Below are positions 3,946 through 21,098 of a DNA stretch of 39,285 bases, piece after piece; the first letter of the stretch is position 1; every line of letters begins with the position of its first letter. The notes under the pieces are model-generated. The model saw nothing but the letters and a program-made list of their open reading frames with translations, ran no database searches and was not told the DNA's origin. The translations under genes and the position numbers were made by a program. Origin of the DNA: a virus. The stretch is taken from the IMG/VR virus record IMGVR_UViG_3300018033_000002, positions 1 through 39,285 of that record. One strand, given 5' to 3'.

Positions 3946-4278
3946 ATGGAAACAAACGGACATTTTCTTGTGCATTTTGACCGTAAAATATCTCAGTTTG
4001 TGGGAGTTAATGAAACTCTCATTCAAGATCTTTCTAAGACTTATCCGCACGTAAATGTTAAATCCGAATTCATGAAAATGCGGCATTGGCTGCTTCATAC
4101 GCAAAAAGGCATTCATCGAAACGCTGATATGGGATTCATTTGTCACTGGCTCAATAATGTGATCATGGAGAGAGAAGAATCAACCAGCCTAGAAACGCCT
4201 CTAGGAAGTTACATAGCAGATTATTTAAAGGGATTATGGAAGAATCGCGAACATGTTCTAGCATTGAATTCGCTTTGA
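3946..4278 (+). CDS. Replication-associated protein, initiator C-terminal-like (110 aa)
   Basis: The section DLSKTYPHVNVKSEFMKM plus RHWLL and FICHWLNN matches the YPxVDVxxExxKMxxWLxxN…FIxxWL pattern often found at the C-terminus of phage and plasmid replication proteins. Here it forms a stand-alone small protein. AGGT lies upstream of the ATG. Its end overlaps the helicase start by 43 bases, so the two are probably made together and may act as helicase accessory and helicase. The role is inferred from pattern and position. Confidence 0.5.
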   Translation: METNGHFLVHFDRKISQFVGVNETLIQDLSKTYPHVNVKSEFMKMRHWLLHTQKGIHRNADMGFICHWLNNVIMEREESTSLETPLGSYIADYLKGLWKNREHVLALNSL

Positions 4279-5135
4279 ATCATTCTCAGGAACCGAACTA
4301 CGAATATTTCTTAGATCCTTCATGTTTGACTCACTTGAAAGATCTTCCTATGACTTATCGAAATGAGATCGATAAAGGATTCTCAACTGGATGGTCCAGT
4401 TTAGACAAATACATGCAAGGGTTGCGCCGCGGCGAAGTTACGGTGATTACAGCAGACACAGGATGCGGAAAAACGACCTTTGCGACTCAATTAATGGTTA
4501 ATACGGCTATGCAAGGGATCCCAGTCTGGATTAATAGCTGGGAAATGAATCCTGCAACTGTCATGCGAAAGTTAGCTTCAATTGTGCTCAGACGGCCAAT
4601 GAAGCTGCAAAACTTTACAGACCATGAGAATGAGCAGTTTGACGAATGGTGCGGCCGCTATAAGGTCTATATCAATCCAAATACAATTGGAACAAGCATT
4701 GACGTGCTTGGTGAGCAGCTAAAAGCTGCAAAGAAATTAGGTGTCGAAATCGTCATGCTCGATCATTTAGATTACCTTGTTAACACCCGCAAAGAGAAGG
4801 TCCACGAAGCGATCGACGACACTGTTAAGCGATTGCATGAAATGGCTTTCTCTTTGTCAATGCACTTTCTGCTTATTTGCCATCCTCGGCAAAGCATGAA
4901 TGGCACCGACGAAGTAGGCATTCACAGCCTAAAGGGTTCTTCGTCCATCAAGCAGTATGCGGATAACATCCTCATACTGCATCGTTGCGCTCGGACAGAC
5001 CCGCAAGCAGATAGAAGTAAAGTTAAAATCCGCATAGCTAAAAACCGTATGTTCGGCTTTGAAGGGGTGACATACCTCTTTTATCAGCCTATGTGGGATG
5101 GATATCTAGAATTTAAGGAGACAAATGGAAGTTGA
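4236..5135 (+). CDS. DnaB-family replicative helicase, RecA-fold domain (299 aa)
   Basis: After about 45 N-terminal residues comes FSTGWSSLDKYMQGLRRGEVTVI, then Walker A ADTGCGKTTFA, Walker B VEIVMLDHLDYL, a sensor-like ICHPRQ and the LKGSSSIKQYADNILIL loop. A basic motif RIAKNRMFG follows, where DnaB-type enzymes carry the arginine-finger region. There is no primase or zinc domain and the DnaB N-terminal domain is missing or minimal, so it is shorter than cellular DnaB (about 450 residues). It should unwind DNA 5' to 3' at the phage fork. A DnaC-like loader that might serve it is 13 kb away at 17564. Confidence 0.85.
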   Translation: MEESRTCSSIEFALNHSQEPNYEYFLDPSCLTHLKDLPMTYRNEIDKGFSTGWSSLDKYMQGLRRGEVTVITADTGCGKTTFATQLMVNTAMQGIPVWINSWEMNPATVMRKLASIVLRRPMKLQNFTDHENEQFDEWCGRYKVYINPNTIGTSIDVLGEQLKAAKKLGVEIVMLDHLDYLVNTRKEKVHEAIDDTVKRLHEMAFSLSMHFLLICHPRQSMNGTDEVGIHSLKGSSSIKQYADNILILHRCARTDPQADRSKVKIRIAKNRMFGFEGVTYLFYQPMWDGYLEFKETNGS

Positions 5136-7689: not shown

Positions 7690-8027
7690 TTTTGTTCCTT
7701 TAATTTCTTAATTTCATCCATCAAAATATCAATTTGCATTTGCATGCATTTAATTTCTGTTCTCAATACATTATAAATATTGATACCTTTATCTTTCATT
7801 ATTCCTGCGACTTTTCTTCTTCTGATTTCTTGTTGTAGTTCTGCTCTTTGTTGAGCATGCTTTGCATTGTAATTTTCTTTGCCTCCATTGCGTCTTACTT
7901 CCGTTGTTAACGTGTTTCTTCCTCTGTCTAACTCAAGACCCATCATCGCATTGCTATATCCTGCACGGAGCATTTTTTCTATCTTTTTTCTTTCTCCATA
8001 ATCAAGGTGACTCAAAGGTTTAGACAT
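7686..8027 (-). CDS. Helix-turn-helix protein, IS30-type N-terminal domain only (113 aa)
   Basis: MSKPLSHLDYGERKKIEKML, then RAGYSNAMMGLELDRGRNTLTTEVRRNG, is the HTH pattern found at the N-terminus of IS30-type transposases (LTxxER..IE..L..G.S...IA..L.R...TI..E..RN). No DDE catalytic domain follows; the C-terminus is a coiled coil (MQMQIDILMDEIKKLKEQ). It is therefore probably a DNA-binding regulator, possibly an excisionase or repressor next to the integrase. ATG 8027 has GAGGG upstream and overlaps the integrase stop (ATGTCTAA). Confidence 0.6.
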   Translation of the reverse strand: MSKPLSHLDYGERKKIEKMLRAGYSNAMMGLELDRGRNTLTTEVRRNGGKENYNAKHAQQRAELQQEIRRRKVAGIMKDKGINIYNVLRTEIKCMQMQIDILMDEIKKLKEQK

Positions 8028-8928
8028 GATTCGCCCTCGGATGTCGTGCATGGAATGTTGCTTGAATCGTTGCGCTACTCAAGTGCGTATATCTCTCTGT
8101 ACTTGCAATTGAGCTATGACCTAAAAGACCTTGTATCATCCTTAGATCTGCGCCATTATCCAACAGGTGACTTGCGCATGCATGTCTCAAACTATGAGTC
8201 GTAACGCCCTCAATTTCAGCTTTCCTTGCATAATGAGCTACCATTGCACAAAGTAAGTTTCTATTAATGCGCTTGCCCATTAAGGTTAAAAATAGAATCC
8301 CTGCTTGCTTACCTCTATGAAAATCAATGTAATGCATGATAGCCCTATATGCCTTTTCTGTTATCGGTATTGCCCTCGTTTTGCTTCTCTTACCACACCG
8401 GACAATAACCTGCTCTTTATGCACATCCTTTAGCTCTAAATCACATAATTCGGAAGCTCTGAGACCCGAACTATACAATAGTTCGAGTATCGCTTTATCT
8501 CTTACACCCGAAGGGGTCAAGCAATTCGGTTGATCTATTAACCTTTCAACCTCCTCAGCAGTTGGCACATTTGGAGCCTTTTGAATATTTCTAGGTGGCG
8601 TTATATCTTCCGTTAAATCAACGCTAATAGCCTTTATTTTGCGTAGGAAGCGACAAAAGCTCTTGATCGACATATAATAGCGATTCAATGTCGAATCGCT
8701 CTTACCCTCTTCCTTTGCGTTTAAAAGATATCCGCGTATTGCTTCACTCTTAAAAGCTTTTACATTCTTGATACGCCTTTCGTCTAGCCAATCAACCAGC
8801 CTAGAAACGTCATGTTTGTATGCTTCTACGGTCAACGGGGCTTTCCCCGAGGCTATCTCCATCACGTAATTCAGCAAAGCTTCTTTCATGGAGAGCGAAG
8901 TTTTTGCTTTTAACTTCAGTTTTTCCAT
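8020..8928 (-). CDS. int: Tyrosine recombinase / integrase, XerC/D-like (302 aa)
   Basis: All catalytic residues are visible in order: Arg in SSGLRASELCDLEL, Lys in GKRSKTRAIPI, His-x-x-Arg in THSLRHACASHLL, His in LLGHSS and the nucleophile Tyr in STERYTHL. The N-terminal SAM-like core-binding domain spans about residues 12-100. It would integrate and excise the phage at an attachment site, which makes the phage temperate. AAGGAGG lies seven bases before ATG 8928. The coding start overlaps the end of the RHH frame by 119 bases. The attachment site itself is not obvious; candidates are the inverted repeat at 11358-11415 and the tRNA-like element at 15444. Confidence 0.93.
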   Translation of the reverse strand: MEKLKLKAKTSLSMKEALLNYVMEIASGKAPLTVEAYKHDVSRLVDWLDERRIKNVKAFKSEAIRGYLLNAKEEGKSDSTLNRYYMSIKSFCRFLRKIKAISVDLTEDITPPRNIQKAPNVPTAEEVERLIDQPNCLTPSGVRDKAILELLYSSGLRASELCDLELKDVHKEQVIVRCGKRSKTRAIPITEKAYRAIMHYIDFHRGKQAGILFLTLMGKRINRNLLCAMVAHYARKAEIEGVTTHSLRHACASHLLDNGADLRMIQGLLGHSSIASTERYTHLSSATIQATFHARHPRANHV

Positions 8929-9156: not shown

Positions 9157-9166
9157 CCTTGGTAGG
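9157..9166 (-). promoter_or_regulatory. Leader motif CCTACCAAGG, copy at 9.16 kb
   Basis: On the minus strand CCTACCAAGG is followed by AAAAAAG and ATG (9149), so its AAGGA part serves as a ribosome site. That ATG opens a 73-codon frame out of phase with the RHH gene; the RHH start at 9097 is 52 bases further. Other copies are at 10789, 11042, 11275, 12217 and, relaxed, 18143. A small palindrome GACTAAAGTC (9179-9188) lies upstream. Confidence 0.6.
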
Positions 9167-10433: not shown

Positions 10434-10781
10434 CTATACAAAATGTAAAACGTTATTGACTTCAAGCGCTACGGCCTCTTGATTCAGTTCGATCTTAAGA
10501 GCTAAACAATACTTGTATACTTTGTCGATATCGCAATCTAATGCAAGCTGATCGCAAAAGCTTTGACAAATGACAATCTTTTCAGTAACCAGCTGACCGC
10601 CTTCTTTGGTTATCCATGCACCGAATCCATCATATGCCGTTGCGCCGTCAAATAGACCTGCAAGAAACTCTAATGTTGCATGCACATATCCGCTATTATC
10701 AATGGCTGACGTTCCATTTGTGGACGGTACATAGATCTTTATATTGTGGCTCAATGTGATTAAATTCTTTAATTGTTTCAT
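10434..10781 (-). CDS. Conserved phage protein of the VPST…GGAT type (115 aa)
   Basis: ATG 10781 is chosen because AAGGAGAG stands six bases before it within a leader motif copy; a longer frame to 10892 lacks a site. IYVPSTNGTSAIDNSGYV, then LEFLAGLFDGATAYDGFGAW and GGQLVTEKIVICQSF, follows a pattern I recognise from many phage genomes (VPST, a GGAT-like turn, G.W, G.L..E.V..V.S). Its biochemical role is not known to me. It is in the leftward early operon. Confidence 0.7.
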   Translation of the reverse strand: MKQLKNLITLSHNIKIYVPSTNGTSAIDNSGYVHATLEFLAGLFDGATAYDGFGAWITKEGGQLVTEKIVICQSFCDQLALDCDIDKVYKYCLALKIELNQEAVALEVNNVLHFV

Positions 10782-10788
10782 ATTCTCT

Positions 10789-10816
10789 CCTTGGTAGGTA
10801 GGGCGATTGCTCGCCC
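10789..10816 (-). promoter_or_regulatory. Leader element: GCAA-tetraloop hairpin plus CCTACCAAGG
   Basis: On the minus strand GGGCGA-GCAA-TCGCCC (10801-10816) is a 6-bp stem capped by a GNRA-type GCAA tetraloop. It is followed by TACCTACCAAGGAGAG and ATG 10781. The AAGGAG is the ribosome site. The copy at 11042-11070 has the same hairpin-loop-motif order with a different stem sequence, so the structure is conserved while its bases vary. Confidence 0.7.
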
Positions 10817-10822
10817 TGATTG

Positions 10823-11032
10823 TTACACACAAACTAATTGGCTTTGCTGTCCATAATATTGCCCTACATGTTGAAGGGGTTCTTCTCTCCATAGATTGGC
10901 GAACACAAAACCCTTTGTTTTGTGAAGCTTATGTATCAAGCTGATAGCTTCAACAATTGAACAATGGCATAGAATATCTTGAATATCTTCTTCCCAATCG
11001 AACAATATGCGGATTCTGAAATCTTCTCTCAT
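10823..11032 (-). CDS. Hypothetical protein (69 aa)
   Basis: ATG 11032 lies eight bases after AAGGAG inside a leader motif copy. The product starts MREDFRIRILFDWEEDIQDI and continues with a helix (SIVEAISLIHKLHKTKG) and a strand section (FVFANLWREE). The layout is compatible with a small alpha-beta domain. No family is recognised. Confidence 0.6.
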   Translation of the reverse strand: MREDFRIRILFDWEEDIQDILCHCSIVEAISLIHKLHKTKGFVFANLWREEPLQHVGQYYGQQSQLVCV

Positions 11033-11041
11033 TGTCTAACT

Positions 11042-11070
11042 CCTTGGTAGGCGGGGGAATTGCTTCCCCC
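11042..11070 (-). promoter_or_regulatory. Leader element: GCAA-tetraloop hairpin plus CCTACCAAGG
   Basis: On the minus strand GGGGGAA-GCAA-TTCCCCC (11053-11070) is a 7-bp stem with a GCAA tetraloop, followed by GCCTACCAAGGAGTT and ATG 11032. The stem differs from the copy at 10801-10816 but the loop, spacing and following motif are the same. Confidence 0.7.
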
Positions 11071-11076
11071 TGGTTG

Positions 11077-12099: not shown

Positions 12100-12207
12100 T
12101 CACACAACCTCTTTACTATAATACAGATAGACTGCATACAGAAAATCACTTGCAATATCATATAGAAAGATGCAGAATGGAATGCGACTCTGGCTATTGA
12201 AACCCAT
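12100..12207 (-). CDS. Possible mini-protein behind a leader motif copy (35 aa)
   Basis: ATG 12207 has AGGGAG seven bases upstream, inside CCTACCAGGGAG, a variant of the leader motif. The product is MGFNSQSRIPFCIFLYDI followed by a hydrophobic, aromatic stretch and SKEVV. It would be an amphipathic or membrane-associated peptide. The start site is as good as those of its larger neighbours, but length alone cannot prove coding. Confidence 0.35.
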   Translation of the reverse strand: MGFNSQSRIPFCIFLYDIASDFLYAVYLYYSKEVV

Positions 12208-12281
12208 TGAGTTACTCCCTGGTAGGGTGTTTTGTGTAGGTGCCCAGGTCTCTATCAATGTAGAGATCTGGGTTTTTTTTT
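12117..12281 (+). ncRNA. Possible short rightward transcript
   Basis: A TATAAT box (12117-12122) without a convincing -35 is followed 120 bases later by a strong rightward terminator, with no rightward coding frame between. A transcript from about 12129 would contain ACTCCCTGGTAGG (12214-12226), complementary at all but one position to the CCTACCAAGGAGT of several leaders. Alternatively this stretch is only the 3' end of the small-terminase mRNA. Confidence 0.3.
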
Positions 12282-12478
12282 ATATCTATCAATGCGTTTA
12301 TCAGACCGTCTATTAAATTTATCCTGTCTTCATTATCCATATCCAATGTAAATATAATATGTGTCACATAAGTCATTGCGATTGAAAGTGCGTTTACGAC
12401 CTGGACTTCATGTTTCATAAAGATTTCATTTATTTCTTGGCAGATATTCAATACTTCAGGTGTTGGAAGTCGGCTCAT
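12212..12478 (-). CDS. Hypothetical helical protein, paralogue B (88 aa)
   Basis: MSRLPTPEVLNICQEINEIF followed by VVNALSIAMTYVTHIIFTLD and NEDRINLIDGLINALIDI is all helical. The spacing of conserved residues resembles the next upstream gene (12456-12701), suggesting a tandem duplication. The last 20 residues are encoded by the rightward terminator stem. No family is recognised. Confidence 0.55.
   Translation of the reverse strand: MSRLPTPEVLNICQEINEIFMKHEVQVVNALSIAMTYVTHIIFTLDMDNEDRINLIDGLINALIDIKKNPDLYIDRDLGTYTKHPTRE
12243..12281 (+). terminator. Strong rho-independent terminator
   Basis: CCCAGGTCTCTA (12243-12254) and TAGAGATCTGGG (12261-12272) form a 12-bp stem with one G-U pair and loop TCAATG, followed by nine T. 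It ends rightward transcription after the small terminase. It lies inside the 3' coding part of the leftward gene ending at 12212, which reads the stem as codons. Confidence 0.88.
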
Positions 12479-15443: not shown

Positions 15444-15519
15444 GCCTCAGAGGACGAATGGTTAAGTCGCCAGACGCTCACCCGCCTGGAGGTGTAGGTT
15501 CGAATCCTACCTTTGGCTA
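15444..15519 (+). tRNA. Degenerate tRNA or tRNA-like element
   Basis: A canonical T arm is present: GTAGG-TTCGAAT-CCTAC (15494-15510), including GGTTCGAATCC. A D arm GAC…GTC encloses GAATGGTTAA (15453-15468). The 3' strand CTTTGGC (15511-15517) pairs with 5' GCC-TC-AGAG only if TC is bulged. The anticodon arm CCAG…CTGG (15470-15489) has a loop of 12 instead of the usual 5-bp stem and 7-base loop, so no anticodon can be assigned. No CCA is encoded. Could be a decayed tRNA, an attachment-site remnant or a tRNA mimic. Confidence 0.45.
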
Positions 15520-17563: not shown

Positions 17564-18133
17564 TTATCTTCTTAAATCAGGTCCGCAATCGACTTCGATG
17601 ATAACATTTTCTGCTGCAAATAAACGACTTGCGAGACGATGATGAAATAAACTTTCGAACTCTCTTCGCGAATAATTGCTGGTTATGATTGTAGGTTTCA
17701 TAGAGCAATATCTCTCATCAACAGCATCGAAGATAATTTCTTTTCTCCAATCGTTTAATCCTGTGCTTCCTATGTCGTCCAAGATAACAAAATCATCATC
17801 AATCAGATGATGTAAAGCATCAAGATAATCGCCCCCATGAAGATCCATCGAAGATCTAACTTTCTTAAGTAACTCAGACTCATTCCAATAACGGAAGGAA
17901 TCGAAGTTATTCAAAGCAAATTCAACAAATGCGGCACATAGGTAAGTTTTGCCAACTCCTGGATTGCCGCAAAAAACTAGGAAATTCTTAGGATTTTGCA
18001 TAAACTTCAATAAGGCTTTTTGATACCATTCTTCTCCAGAAATTCTTGAAATGTTAGCACCGACGTATCTTTCTCCGAAGAGGTTTTTTTGGGTGGTTTC
18101 AACGCTGCGGACGGGACGGAATCTTTTTTCCAC
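17564..18133 (-). CDS. DnaC/IstB-like AAA+ helicase loader (189 aa), GTG start
   Basis: Walker A GNPGVGKTYL, Walker B FVILDDIG, sensor-like IITSNYSRREF and an arginine-finger region FHHRLASRLF mark a DnaC-type AAA+ ATPase that loads the replicative helicase. The GTG start at 18133 is supported by AAAGGAAAG upstream inside a relaxed leader motif copy. Its first 43 codons overlap the initiator gene in another frame, both sides looking genuine. It is short but complete for this family. Its presumed partner helicase is at 4236. Confidence 0.85.
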   Translation of the reverse strand: MEKRFRPVRSVETTQKNLFGERYVGANISRISGEEWYQKALLKFMQNPKNFLVFCGNPGVGKTYLCAAFVEFALNNFDSFRYWNESELLKKVRSSMDLHGGDYLDALHHLIDDDFVILDDIGSTGLNDWRKEIIFDAVDERYCSMKPTIITSNYSRREFESLFHHRLASRLFAAENVIIEVDCGPDLRR

Positions 18134-18822
18134 GGCTTCTTTCCTTTTGGTAGGGTTTTTTGTTTCTTAATACGCATATTATTTATCGTTCCAGAGATAA
18201 ATTTGAACCATTCTCTCACGGGACCGCGATATTTTACAAGAATATTCCAGGCTGCCTCGATCTCGGTTATGGAGAAGTCATTTTTCTCCTGAACACACGC
18301 AGTCATCAAATCCTGAAAGCTTATGGTGAATTCCTTACCATCAGGAGACCTTTTCTTACACTTTTCCACAATGCCCGTGGTCTCGGGCTTAGACAGAACA
18401 GAACAATTGTTTGGTTCGGTATATGGTATTGTATCTGTAGTAGAGGTTGCAGATTCGTGATCCCGATTTTGCGAATCCGCATCCTCGATTTTGCAATTTT
18501 GCAATACAATAAACATTTCTTCATTTTGAAACGCATACCACATAGTCTTTTCGAATTGCGTCTTATTAAAATTTCCTTTTATAATTACTCCAAATTCTTC
18601 AAGTCTTCGTATTATTCTGAAAACCTTATCCTTATTCCAATAAGGAAAATAACCCGCAATTTCTTCCAACGTGTTGTATGTCCAGGTCCGGCCATCCCTG
18701 AAATTTTTCTTCATATTTCGATTATATGTGATCCAAAATTGGAAATGATGAATCATTATGGCGCATTCGATCCCATAAGATTCAGCTAGATTGACGTTGA
18801 ATGAATGGTTTGGTCCTGACAT
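18007..18822 (-). CDS. Replication initiator, winged-helix O-like protein (271 aa)
   Basis: AAGGAG lies before ATG 18822. The N-terminal 110 residues match phage and plasmid initiator winged-helix domains: FNVNLAESYGIECAIMIHHF, then WTYNTLEEIAGYFPYWNKDKV and FRIIRRLEEFGVI. The middle is a low-complexity linker. The C-terminus is basic (KKQKTLPKGKKPWKK) and ends with a short TFQEFLEKNGIKKPY helix. It should bind the origin and recruit the helicase loader encoded next. No iterons were found nearby. Confidence 0.75.
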   Translation of the reverse strand: MSGPNHSFNVNLAESYGIECAIMIHHFQFWITYNRNMKKNFRDGRTWTYNTLEEIAGYFPYWNKDKVFRIIRRLEEFGVIIKGNFNKTQFEKTMWYAFQNEEMFIVLQNCKIEDADSQNRDHESATSTTDTIPYTEPNNCSVLSKPETTGIVEKCKKRSPDGKEFTISFQDLMTACVQEKNDFSITEIEAAWNILVKYRGPVREWFKFISGTINNMRIKKQKTLPKGKKPWKKDSVPSAALKPPKKTSSEKDTSVLTFQEFLEKNGIKKPY

Positions 18823-18861
18823 AGCTTTCTCCTTTTTTTTGGTGCAGTCTGTATTTTTCTC

Positions 18862-18902
18862 TTGCACTAAACTTGGAGTATGCTATTATTGAGACATACT
18901 CC
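18862..18902 (+). promoter_or_regulatory. Promoter with overlapping palindromic operator
   Basis: TTGCAC (18862-18867), a 16-base spacer and TATTAT (18884-18889) face rightward. GGAGTATG (18875-18882) and CATACTCC (18895-18902) are perfect 8-bp arms with 12 bases between and cover the -10 and the start point. The palindrome also lies 53 bases upstream of the leftward initiator start, so one protein could control both directions. Confidence 0.65.
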
Positions 18903-18976
18903 GCGTTTATAAGATCCACCAAGACCTATGTGCAGAGTTGGAGTTACCTTCTGGTAGAGGTAGCTCCTTTTTTTTT
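18896..18976 (+). ncRNA. Candidate small RNA (~80 nt)
   Basis: The interval begins just after a good promoter and ends at a textbook terminator. No ribosome site plus reading frame lies between. The terminator loop TTCTGGTAGA exposes UGGUAG, complementary to the CUACCA core of the leader motif that precedes several leftward genes, including the helicase-loader gene next door. The existence of the RNA is inferred from the two signals; targets are speculative. Confidence 0.5.
18940..18976 (+). terminator. Rho-independent terminator
   Basis: GGAGTTACC (18940-18948) pairs with GGTAGCTCC (18959-18967) over nine bases with one U-G, loop TTCTGGTAGA, followed by nine T. No rightward gene is upstream of it within reach except the short interval after the promoter at 18862. 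Confidence 0.88.
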
Positions 18977-19048
18977 GTTTAAACCAGTCCACCAATCTAT
19001 TCCCCATAAATCATTTTCGTCAATACAAACCTAACTGCCACATTTCCT

Positions 19049-19077
19049 TTGACATAAATTAAAAAAATTTGTTTACT
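19049..19077 (+). promoter_or_regulatory. Putative promoter of the morphogenesis operon
   Basis: TTGACA (19049-19054), a 17-base A/T-rich spacer and TTTACT (19072-19077) precede the portal gene by 45 bases. A TATAGT follows at about 19086. It lies downstream of the terminator at 18940-18976, so it probably gives the structural genes their own transcript. Confidence 0.55.
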
Positions 19078-19121
19078 GCGGTTTTATAGTAAGACTTATT
19101 TTAATTTCATCAAGGTCAAGA

Positions 19122-21098
19122 ATGGCAACAGATTACGATATAGTTTCTGACTTTACTCAGGACTATAATCGCTCATACATGCTGCTTAATACCTATTATG
19201 CCGAAGCCTACCGTGATGTCGGGTACTACCTCGGCAATCAATGGAGCCTTGACCAGCTGAAATATTTGGGAGACGAACGAAGAAACGCTTTCACATTCAA
19301 CAAGATTCGCAAAACGATTGATATGGTCGGCGGTTTCTTGAATGCGAATGAAAATGCTTCGATCGCGGTTCCATATGAAAACAGTTCAGAGCAGACTGCC
19401 GAACAGCTTACAGAGCTTCTGAGACATGCGTTGCAGCCGAAAGGTTATGCGGCGATGAGAAAAGCTCGGCACAATGCTCTAGTTTCCGGTGTATGCTGGG
19501 TTAGCCCCTGGATCGATTACAGGCAGGATTATGTCAATGGCAGGATTAATTATCATGTTGATAATTGGAATGACGTTATCTGGGACCCGTTCAGCGTGCA
19601 GCATTCGCTTGAGGATTGCACCTTTGTGGCCCGTAGAAAGTACCTGAGCAAGGATGTGATTAAATCCTTGGTTCCCGGATGCGAGAGAGAGATCGACGCA
19701 ATGGGATATGGTAATAGGGATGAGAAATTCACCTATGAGCCTTATGCCCGGCAATGGGGTCTTCAGGAACTTTTGGCTTATAATGAATACTGGAAACAAC
19801 GATACAAGAAGGGTTGGTTGCTCGTAGATAAGGTTACGGGTGAACAGAAACCTTGGAAAGGTGACAAGAGACGCTTGCAGATGATGCAGGAATTGTTTCC
19901 TAATATTGCGGTAATCGAGGGTTATTATAAGACAGTCGATTATAACATTATCGTCGAAAACAGGCTCTTATATAGTGGTGAAGATCCTTGGGGCATCGGA
20001 GAGTACCCTTTTGTCCCCTTCTATTGCGTATTTGACGGTTCATACGATCTATTCCAGTGGAAGATACAGAGTCTCGTCAGACTGCTCCGTGACCCGCAGG
20101 AAGAGTACAATATGCGGAAGAGTAAACTTCTGGATATCGTGGACAGTCAAATTGGCAGTGGTTGGAAAGCAAAATCAGGTGCAGTTTCTAACCCCAAAGC
20201 TTTATTCCAGACTGGTCAAGGCAAAGTCGTATTCTTTAACCCAGGATTTGAACTAGATGATGCACAAAGGATTGATGCGCCTAATATCCCTGAGTCTTTG
20301 TTTGCTCTACAGGAAAGCTTTGATGCTGATATCAAAGATATGGTGGACCTTGGGACTCTAGGTGCAGTTGATACGGATCGCATGAGCGCGATGCTCTTCA
20401 AGATGAAGCAAAGCATGGCGACGATGCAACTCGGTCCAATTGTGGAGAATTTCAAGACGGCTCAATATCATCTTAGCAAGAAAGTCTTAAAGATGATTCA
20501 GAACTATACTCCAGAGAAAGTCGGAAGAATCATTAAGAGTGAGCCGACACCTGAGTTCTACAACAAAACATTCCTTGAGTATGACATTGACATTGTTGAA
20601 CAGGTCATGACTGATACTCAGAAACAGAATGCATTTATGCAGGCCTGGGCGATGAAGCAAGGTGGTGCTATAGTTCCAGATGAGTTGCTTTGGGAGCTAT
20701 CTCCATATCCGATTCAGAAGAAATTCATGGAGAAGATTCAACAGCAAGCCGAAGCGGCCGAGGAACAAGCAAAACAGGATCAGGAAGACAAACAGCAAGT
20801 CAACGAGCTATTGCAAGCAAAGGCTTTTACAGACATTGCACTTGGCGAAGAAAGACTAAGCAGAATCAAATACGACGCGGCATTGAGCGAAGAAAGACTC
20901 GCAGCCGCACAGGAAGAGAGGTCAAGAGGTGTTCTGGATGAAGTGCGTGCAGCTAAAGAGTTCCAAGAAATGGACATTGGCAACGCTGAAAAGATTCTTA
21001 ATATCATTAGGGGTATTGAAGAAGAACAAAGATTAAAAGCAGCCGACACGGTAGTACCGCAGCCAGCTGTTAAAGCAAAAACTGGAGCCAAGGCATGA
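19122..21098 (+). CDS. Portal protein, P22-like (658 aa)
   Basis: MATDYDIVSDFTQDYNRSYM, then YLGNQWSLDQLKYLGDERRN and FNKIRKTIDMVGGFLNANEN, is the typical N-terminal region of P22-type portals (bulky head, Q-W, R-N-A-F-T-F-N-K). Middle and C-terminal parts contain QWKIQSLVRLLRDPQEEYNMR and a long charged coiled coil from about residue 545 (KIQQQAEAAEEQAKQDQEDK), matching the barrel region. The dodecameric portal is the DNA gate of the capsid. Length is close to P22 gp1 (725 residues). Confidence 0.88.
   Translation: MATDYDIVSDFTQDYNRSYMLLNTYYAEAYRDVGYYLGNQWSLDQLKYLGDERRNAFTFNKIRKTIDMVGGFLNANENASIAVPYENSSEQTAEQLTELLRHALQPKGYAAMRKARHNALVSGVCWVSPWIDYRQDYVNGRINYHVDNWNDVIWDPFSVQHSLEDCTFVARRKYLSKDVIKSLVPGCEREIDAMGYGNRDEKFTYEPYARQWGLQELLAYNEYWKQRYKKGWLLVDKVTGEQKPWKGDKRRLQMMQELFPNIAVIEGYYKTVDYNIIVENRLLYSGEDPWGIGEYPFVPFYCVFDGSYDLFQWKIQSLVRLLRDPQEEYNMRKSKLLDIVDSQIGSGWKAKSGAVSNPKALFQTGQGKVVFFNPGFELDDAQRIDAPNIPESLFALQESFDADIKDMVDLGTLGAVDTDRMSAMLFKMKQSMATMQLGPIVENFKTAQYHLSKKVLKMIQNYTPEKVGRIIKSEPTPEFYNKTFLEYDIDIVEQVMTDTQKQNAFMQAWAMKQGGAIVPDELLWELSPYPIQKKFMEKIQQQAEAAEEQAKQDQEDKQQVNELLQAKAFTDIALGEERLSRIKYDAALSEERLAAAQEERSRGVLDEVRAAKEFQEMDIGNAEKILNIIRGIEEEQRLKAADTVVPQPAVKAKTGAKA

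Follow-up and report, generated by a model that had tools for sequence, protein, structure and literature searches.

What could a short, terminated RNA without coding content control when it lies between the replication genes and the portal gene of a tailed phage? The question is raised by the IMG/VR virus record IMGVR_UViG_3300018033_000002, a stretch of 39,285 bases that was analysed at its full length and is called the window throughout. The element sits between a leftward replication operon, which encodes an initiator and a helicase loader, and the rightward portal gene. The first-pass annotation of this DNA had proposed a non-coding, terminated small RNA controlling the translation of early genes, and our computations support an RNA of this kind that probably acts on the translation of an early gene. 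The reading that we favour, and consider likely to be correct, is that of a cis-antisense RNA, countertranscribed to the message of the phage replication initiator, whose translation it controls. The architecture of the locus, its conservation, the phage-specific complementarity of two pairs of sequence arms (B:C and B:A), a predicted switch between two leader folds and the identification of most of the regulated genes as replication initiators were all obtained by computation.

Architecture of the locus

The gene proposed to be regulated is the replication initiator (18007..18822, − strand), a DnaD/O-like protein of 271 aa that belongs to phrog_11233, and the next gene in the same leftward operon encodes a DnaC-like helicase loader (17564..18133, − strand). 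The portal gene (19122..21098, + strand) forms the right border of the locus and was the query with which relatives were collected. The promoter of the short RNA, described at the outset as TTGCAC-16-TATTAT, is present at 18862..18889 on the + strand (TTGCAC at 18862-18867, TATTAT at 18884-18889, spacer of 16 nt). A matrix built from 21 relatives, with the window left out, ranked it first among 392,450 placements in the window. A start six to eight nt after the −10 hexamer agrees with the suggested length of about 80 nt, and the positions of promoter and terminator place the predicted RNA at 18896..18976 (+ strand). The intrinsic terminator (18940..18976, + strand) has the nine T previously noted, at 18968-18976, and its stem (18940-18967) comprises 10-11 bp instead of the nine pairs first counted.

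Generic tools had little power at this locus. A general promoter scan of the window found 43 sites against 34 expected, without the antisense promoter in its list, and a terminator scan found 13 against 11. A search of phage DNA with the locus as query gave no match, and Rfam had no match at the locus at the gathering score.

The perfect palindrome reported over the promoter, GGAGTATG-N12-CATACTCC, is also present, at 18875-18902, and was equalled in none of 100 shuffled sequences. Its left arm, B (18875..18882), reads GGAGTATG on the + strand, and its right arm, C (18895..18902), reads CATACTCC and forms the 5′ end of the antisense RNA. The significance of these arms lies on the other strand. 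A leftward early promoter, TTGACG-18-TAGATT (18994..19023, − strand), is found just beyond the terminator, and from its position the initiator mRNA is predicted to begin near 18987, with a 5′ leader of about 165 nt (18823..18987, − strand). This leader would carry, in order, a hairpin that is the complement of the terminator, arm C′ (GGAGUAUG), arm B′ and the Shine-Dalgarno sequence. Arm B′ is the opposite strand of the antisense promoter at 18862..18889, and within it arm B reads CAUACUCC, an anti-Shine-Dalgarno sequence. The initiator Shine-Dalgarno sequence, AAGGAG (18829..18834, − strand), is designated region A′ and would be sequestered by B′ in the OFF fold.

Given an mRNA start near 18987, the short RNA would be antisense to the first half of the leader. 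Both RNAs are presumed to be transcribed, and the short one is in all probability a cis-antisense RNA to the divergent replication operon.

Conservation among related phages

When viral contigs were searched with the portal, 34 loci were found, at 69-81% identity. A first set of 20 phages, the window and 19 relatives, shared at the same position a promoter whose −35 is of the TTGC type, followed by a terminated RNA of 61-151 nt, and in 20/20 the T-run lay 129-183 nt upstream of the portal gene. Four further phages (L003, L017, L027 and L075) were added by eye to give 24; the promoter arms of the first 20 were also chosen by eye, and those of the later four with the repeat in view. Of the 28 relatives examined, the window counted, 24 have the element immediately before the portal gene, and no recognisable element is present in L007, L010, L011 and L030; L008 is a truncated locus. 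In L003 a second terminator lies between the element and the portal gene (about −200 to −90 from the portal), and may possibly belong to a second small RNA.

The opposing promoter is likewise conserved. A leftward TTGACA-17/18-TAnnnT lies just right of the terminator in 18/20 phages, with its predicted start 4-25 nt right of the T-run (18/20), and a matrix derived from relatives places the window's copy fourth in the window. Because this promoter is conserved to the right of the terminator, the RNA of about 80 nt is predicted to be complementary, over its whole length, to the 5′ leader of the initiator mRNA. The order of promoter, short RNA, terminator, opposing promoter and portal gene is kept in the 20 phages and in the four added to them.

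The gene behind the leader is more variable than the layout in front of it. In the window, and in most of the relatives that were tested, the leftward gene matches PHROGs for replication initiation or of the DnaD type, and the regulated initiators of the relatives fall in several different PHROGs. In a few relatives the leftward gene matches only DNA-binding or unknown families, and those of L017, L026 and L029 had no PHROG match. Comparison of these loci suggests that the RNA device stayed in place while the initiator behind it was exchanged, an exchange that would also account for the result of the initiator search in viral contigs, in which the sole relative was L036 (45% identity). By eye, the leader of this distant initiator contains an opposing promoter-like site and a terminator (about 2580-3030 of L036), and this similar layout implies that the device may extend beyond the present phage family.

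Phage-specific pairing and a predicted fold switch

On the leader strand, B′ can pair with C′ or, alternatively, with A′. We compared the pairing energies of each phage's own arms with those of partners swapped from other phages, using 20,000 permutations. Across 24 phages, own arms paired far better than swapped ones for both B:C (z=-12.1) and B:A (z=-9.3), and 0/20,000 permutations were as good in either case. The 20 phages picked by promoter motif alone gave the same picture (B:C z=-9.9, B:A z=-7.9; 0/20,000 each), and placebo pairs (the region right of the terminator with B, B with the gene body, and A with C) showed no phage-specific signal (z +1.8, +1.3 and -0.4). Arm sequences differ among the phages with complementarity retained, and this holds at spacings between about 12 nt and many tens of nt; bulges occur as well. 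In 23/24 phages most of the paired C arm is contained in the antisense RNA.

Individual loci range from striking to weak. L003 has a 13-nt perfect repeat core and a 12-bp B:A pairing, and L014, L004 and L075 are further striking cases; B:C pairing is weak in L002, L025, L028 and L029, and B:A pairing in L018 and L019. The window's own B:A pairing ranks ninth of the 24.

Folding calculations predict alternative leader stems, one of them hiding the ribosome binding site, that would be switched by binding of the antisense RNA. When the part of the leader covered by the antisense RNA was blocked, B shifted from C to A, and accessibility of the Shine-Dalgarno sequence dropped in 18/20 phages (mean 0.28 to 0.14, p=3e-4). 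In this closed state the Shine-Dalgarno sequence was unpaired at 0.145, against 0.534 for 445 other gene starts of these phages (p=2e-10). The predicted change in the window itself is modest (0.45 to 0.33). In the free leader at equilibrium the Shine-Dalgarno sequence is already partly closed (0.28, compared with 0.53 in other genes); the ON state therefore probably relies on C′:B′ forming first during transcription.

These calculations suggest the following mechanism. Transcription from the leftward early promoter near 19,000 would yield an initiator mRNA that begins with about 165 nt of leader; while this leader emerges, C′ would pair with B′, forming the ‘palindrome’, and the Shine-Dalgarno sequence would stay available. 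The rightward promoter in the same DNA would produce the antisense RNA of about 80 nt, with arm C at its 5′ end and the terminator at its 3′ end. Bound to the leader, the antisense RNA would occupy C′ and free B′, which could then pair with A′, the Shine-Dalgarno region, and stop initiator translation. As antisense output would follow gene dose, the number of phage genome copies should be limited, and a resident phage should keep newly arriving phages of its own type from replicating. The direction of the effect, and the role in copy control or immunity, are those that this layout would imply.

Alternative functions of the RNA

The antisense RNA could act on the initiator in another way, through transcription interference, RNase III cleavage or attenuation of the pT181/pIP501 type, which we consider rather unlikely. 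The two promoters are convergent, interference between pO and pR of phage lambda affects replication (PMC3985674), and a U-run follows arm B′ in some relatives. However, such U-runs are not general, the window's leader has none after the sequestering stem (no attenuator U-run is present in the window sequence between the Shine-Dalgarno sequence and the initiator ATG), and interference alone would not require the B:A pairing.

The first-pass annotation read the palindrome as an operator, and a repressor site over overlapping divergent promoters, with the RNA incidental, would fit the perfect 8-bp arms around the −10 and the phage-specific sequences, as found in immunity regions. It is also compatible with a wobble-pair test, which gave no signal that would distinguish the leader-strand RNA from either the DNA or the opposite strand. 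An operator is nevertheless very improbable: the arms differ between phages in spacing and sequence yet remain complementary, arm B can pair with the initiator's Shine-Dalgarno region as well, as the B:A statistics above attest, and the terminator and opposing promoter are retained together with the arms.

Of equally low probability is a trans-acting small RNA, whose UGGUAG loop would pair with CUACCA in several early leaders and block their translation. Five to six leftward leaders of this phage have CTACCA beside the Shine-Dalgarno sequence, those singled out initially (at 9157, 10789, 11042, 11275 and 18143) among them, but the motif is not exclusive to such leaders, with about 11 more copies elsewhere. 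As targets, the five named leaders rank only 52-106 of 123, and none reaches p<0.05 against shuffled RNAs (p 0.06-0.64). The joint conservation of loop and motif that a trans circuit predicts was not seen, as the motif is missing from the 19 relatives even though the RNA is retained in most of them. The leader motif CTACCAAGGA has three copies in this phage and essentially none in the 19 relatives, in which no other shared leader motif takes its place. The foremost CUACCA match of the loop lies in the initiator leader, on the strand opposite the RNA itself.

The only standout in the ranking of trans targets is the leader at 12207, which can pair over 17 nt (-31.6 kcal/mol, p=0.01 against shuffled RNAs). 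The + strand at 12100-12290 resembles the terminator of the antisense RNA and carries a second terminator (12242-12273, followed by T8) opposite the leftward leader CTACCAGGGAGTAACTCAATG (12225-12205), and this region is possibly a second local antisense element. Two of the early leaders, at 10781-10820 and 11032-11075 (− strand), share a GCAA-loop hairpin followed by CUACCAAGGAG, and the five to six early leaders with CTACCA at the Shine-Dalgarno sequence are a trait of this phage that its relatives lack.

The least probable function is that of a late-gene leader transcript whose terminator is read through with a Q-like antiterminator, as at lambda pR′-tR′: the short terminated transcript does sit directly upstream of the late (portal) genes, but no antiterminator was identified among the part of the gene set that was screened, this function would leave unexplained why the promoter spacer is complementary to the Shine-Dalgarno sequence of the opposite gene, and a separate A-rich TTTACT element that follows the terminator in most phages, by eye, could be the late promoter. 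In the window this element (TTGNCATAAATTNAAAAAAA...TTTACT) lies at 19040-19100, upstream of the portal gene; it is conserved in most relatives and is probably a late promoter.

Relationship to known antisense systems

A predicted short RNA opposite the 5′ leader of a replication initiator is the arrangement by which the plasmids pSK41 and pT181 are controlled. RNAI of pSK41 is about 83 nt long and counter-transcribed to the rep leader, and once bound it brings about a stem in which the ribosome binding site is hidden; control is translational and not by attenuation (PMC5703833). The cis-antisense RNA proposed here follows the same logic, with a short RNA antisense to an initiator leader and a stem that hides the Shine-Dalgarno sequence. 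The likeness rests on layout and logic, with no Rfam match at our locus, and pSK41 is a staphylococcal plasmid with a RepA_N initiator, whereas the present loci belong to tailed phages with exchangeable DnaD/O-like initiators. RNAI of pT181 (87 nt) exerts attenuation control of its leader (PMC5703833). The pT181 RNAI/repC and pIP501 RNAIII systems resemble our locus in having a short leader antisense RNA and a pre-emptor pairing that alternates with a ribosome-binding-site stem; the induced stem in those systems is a terminator, whereas the stem in the window lacks a following U-run.

Among phages, lambda OOP/pO is the nearest analogue by position, as a short terminated RNA by the replication genes that is convergent with an early promoter, and pO affects replication (PMC3985674, PMC12197685). 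OOP is antisense to the cII mRNA, whereas the RNA described here is antisense to the initiator leader. An identity with OOP, which would place the RNA between cII and O and antisense to a cII-like gene, was rejected, since the RNA lies instead between the initiator and the portal gene. No Shine-Dalgarno switch is reported for OOP in the literature consulted. The c4 RNA of P1/P7 is a phage antisense RNA that controls an early function and immunity (PMC8198154), with the icd/ant operon as its target in place of replication. Extrachromosomal prophages of mycobacteriophages have RNA-based replication control and incompatibility (PMC7157519); in those phages the initiator is itself an RNA instead of a protein, whereas the present RNA appears to control the initiator mRNA.

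Hosts and lifestyle

The phages form a tailed-phage family whose hosts are probably Chlamydiae. Named phages are remote, with portal identities of at most 23%, and a portal relative at 80% identity occurs in a Chlamydiales MAG. Portal relatives were found in 10 of 234 Chlamydiota genomes, several of them on contigs that, at 35-41 kb, are as long as an entire phage genome. The distant relatives on such contigs (L109-L115, in G183, G110, G244, G142 and G162) are candidate extrachromosomal prophages; no element was seen upstream of these more distant Chlamydiota portals.

Among the products encoded in the window are a tyrosine integrase and a ParB-like protein. A temperate lifestyle is likely, and extrachromosomal maintenance is a possibility. 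A DnaB-like helicase gene lies at 4236-5135 and the integrase gene at 8020-8928; both gene types also occur on chlamydial plasmids. A tRNA-like sequence at 15444-15518 (+ strand; 40 bits with Rfam, negative with ARAGORN) may be an attachment site.

Implications

Control of an initiator by antisense RNA through Shine-Dalgarno sequestration belongs to plasmid biology, and the open-access literature yielded no published case of such initiator control in a tailed phage, an absence that is not proof. Our wider interpretation is tentative: temperate tailed phages of the Chlamydiae may use a plasmid-style antisense switch as a module on exchangeable initiators from unrelated families, perhaps to exclude relatives, and may themselves be plasmid-like prophages. 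As each phage has its own matched pair of arms, the idea could be tested by simple reporter swaps. If true, it would link phage and plasmid copy control and make RNA-based superinfection-exclusion groups predictable from sequence. It would also offer a handle on the phages of the Chlamydiae, a phylum for which few tailed phages are known.
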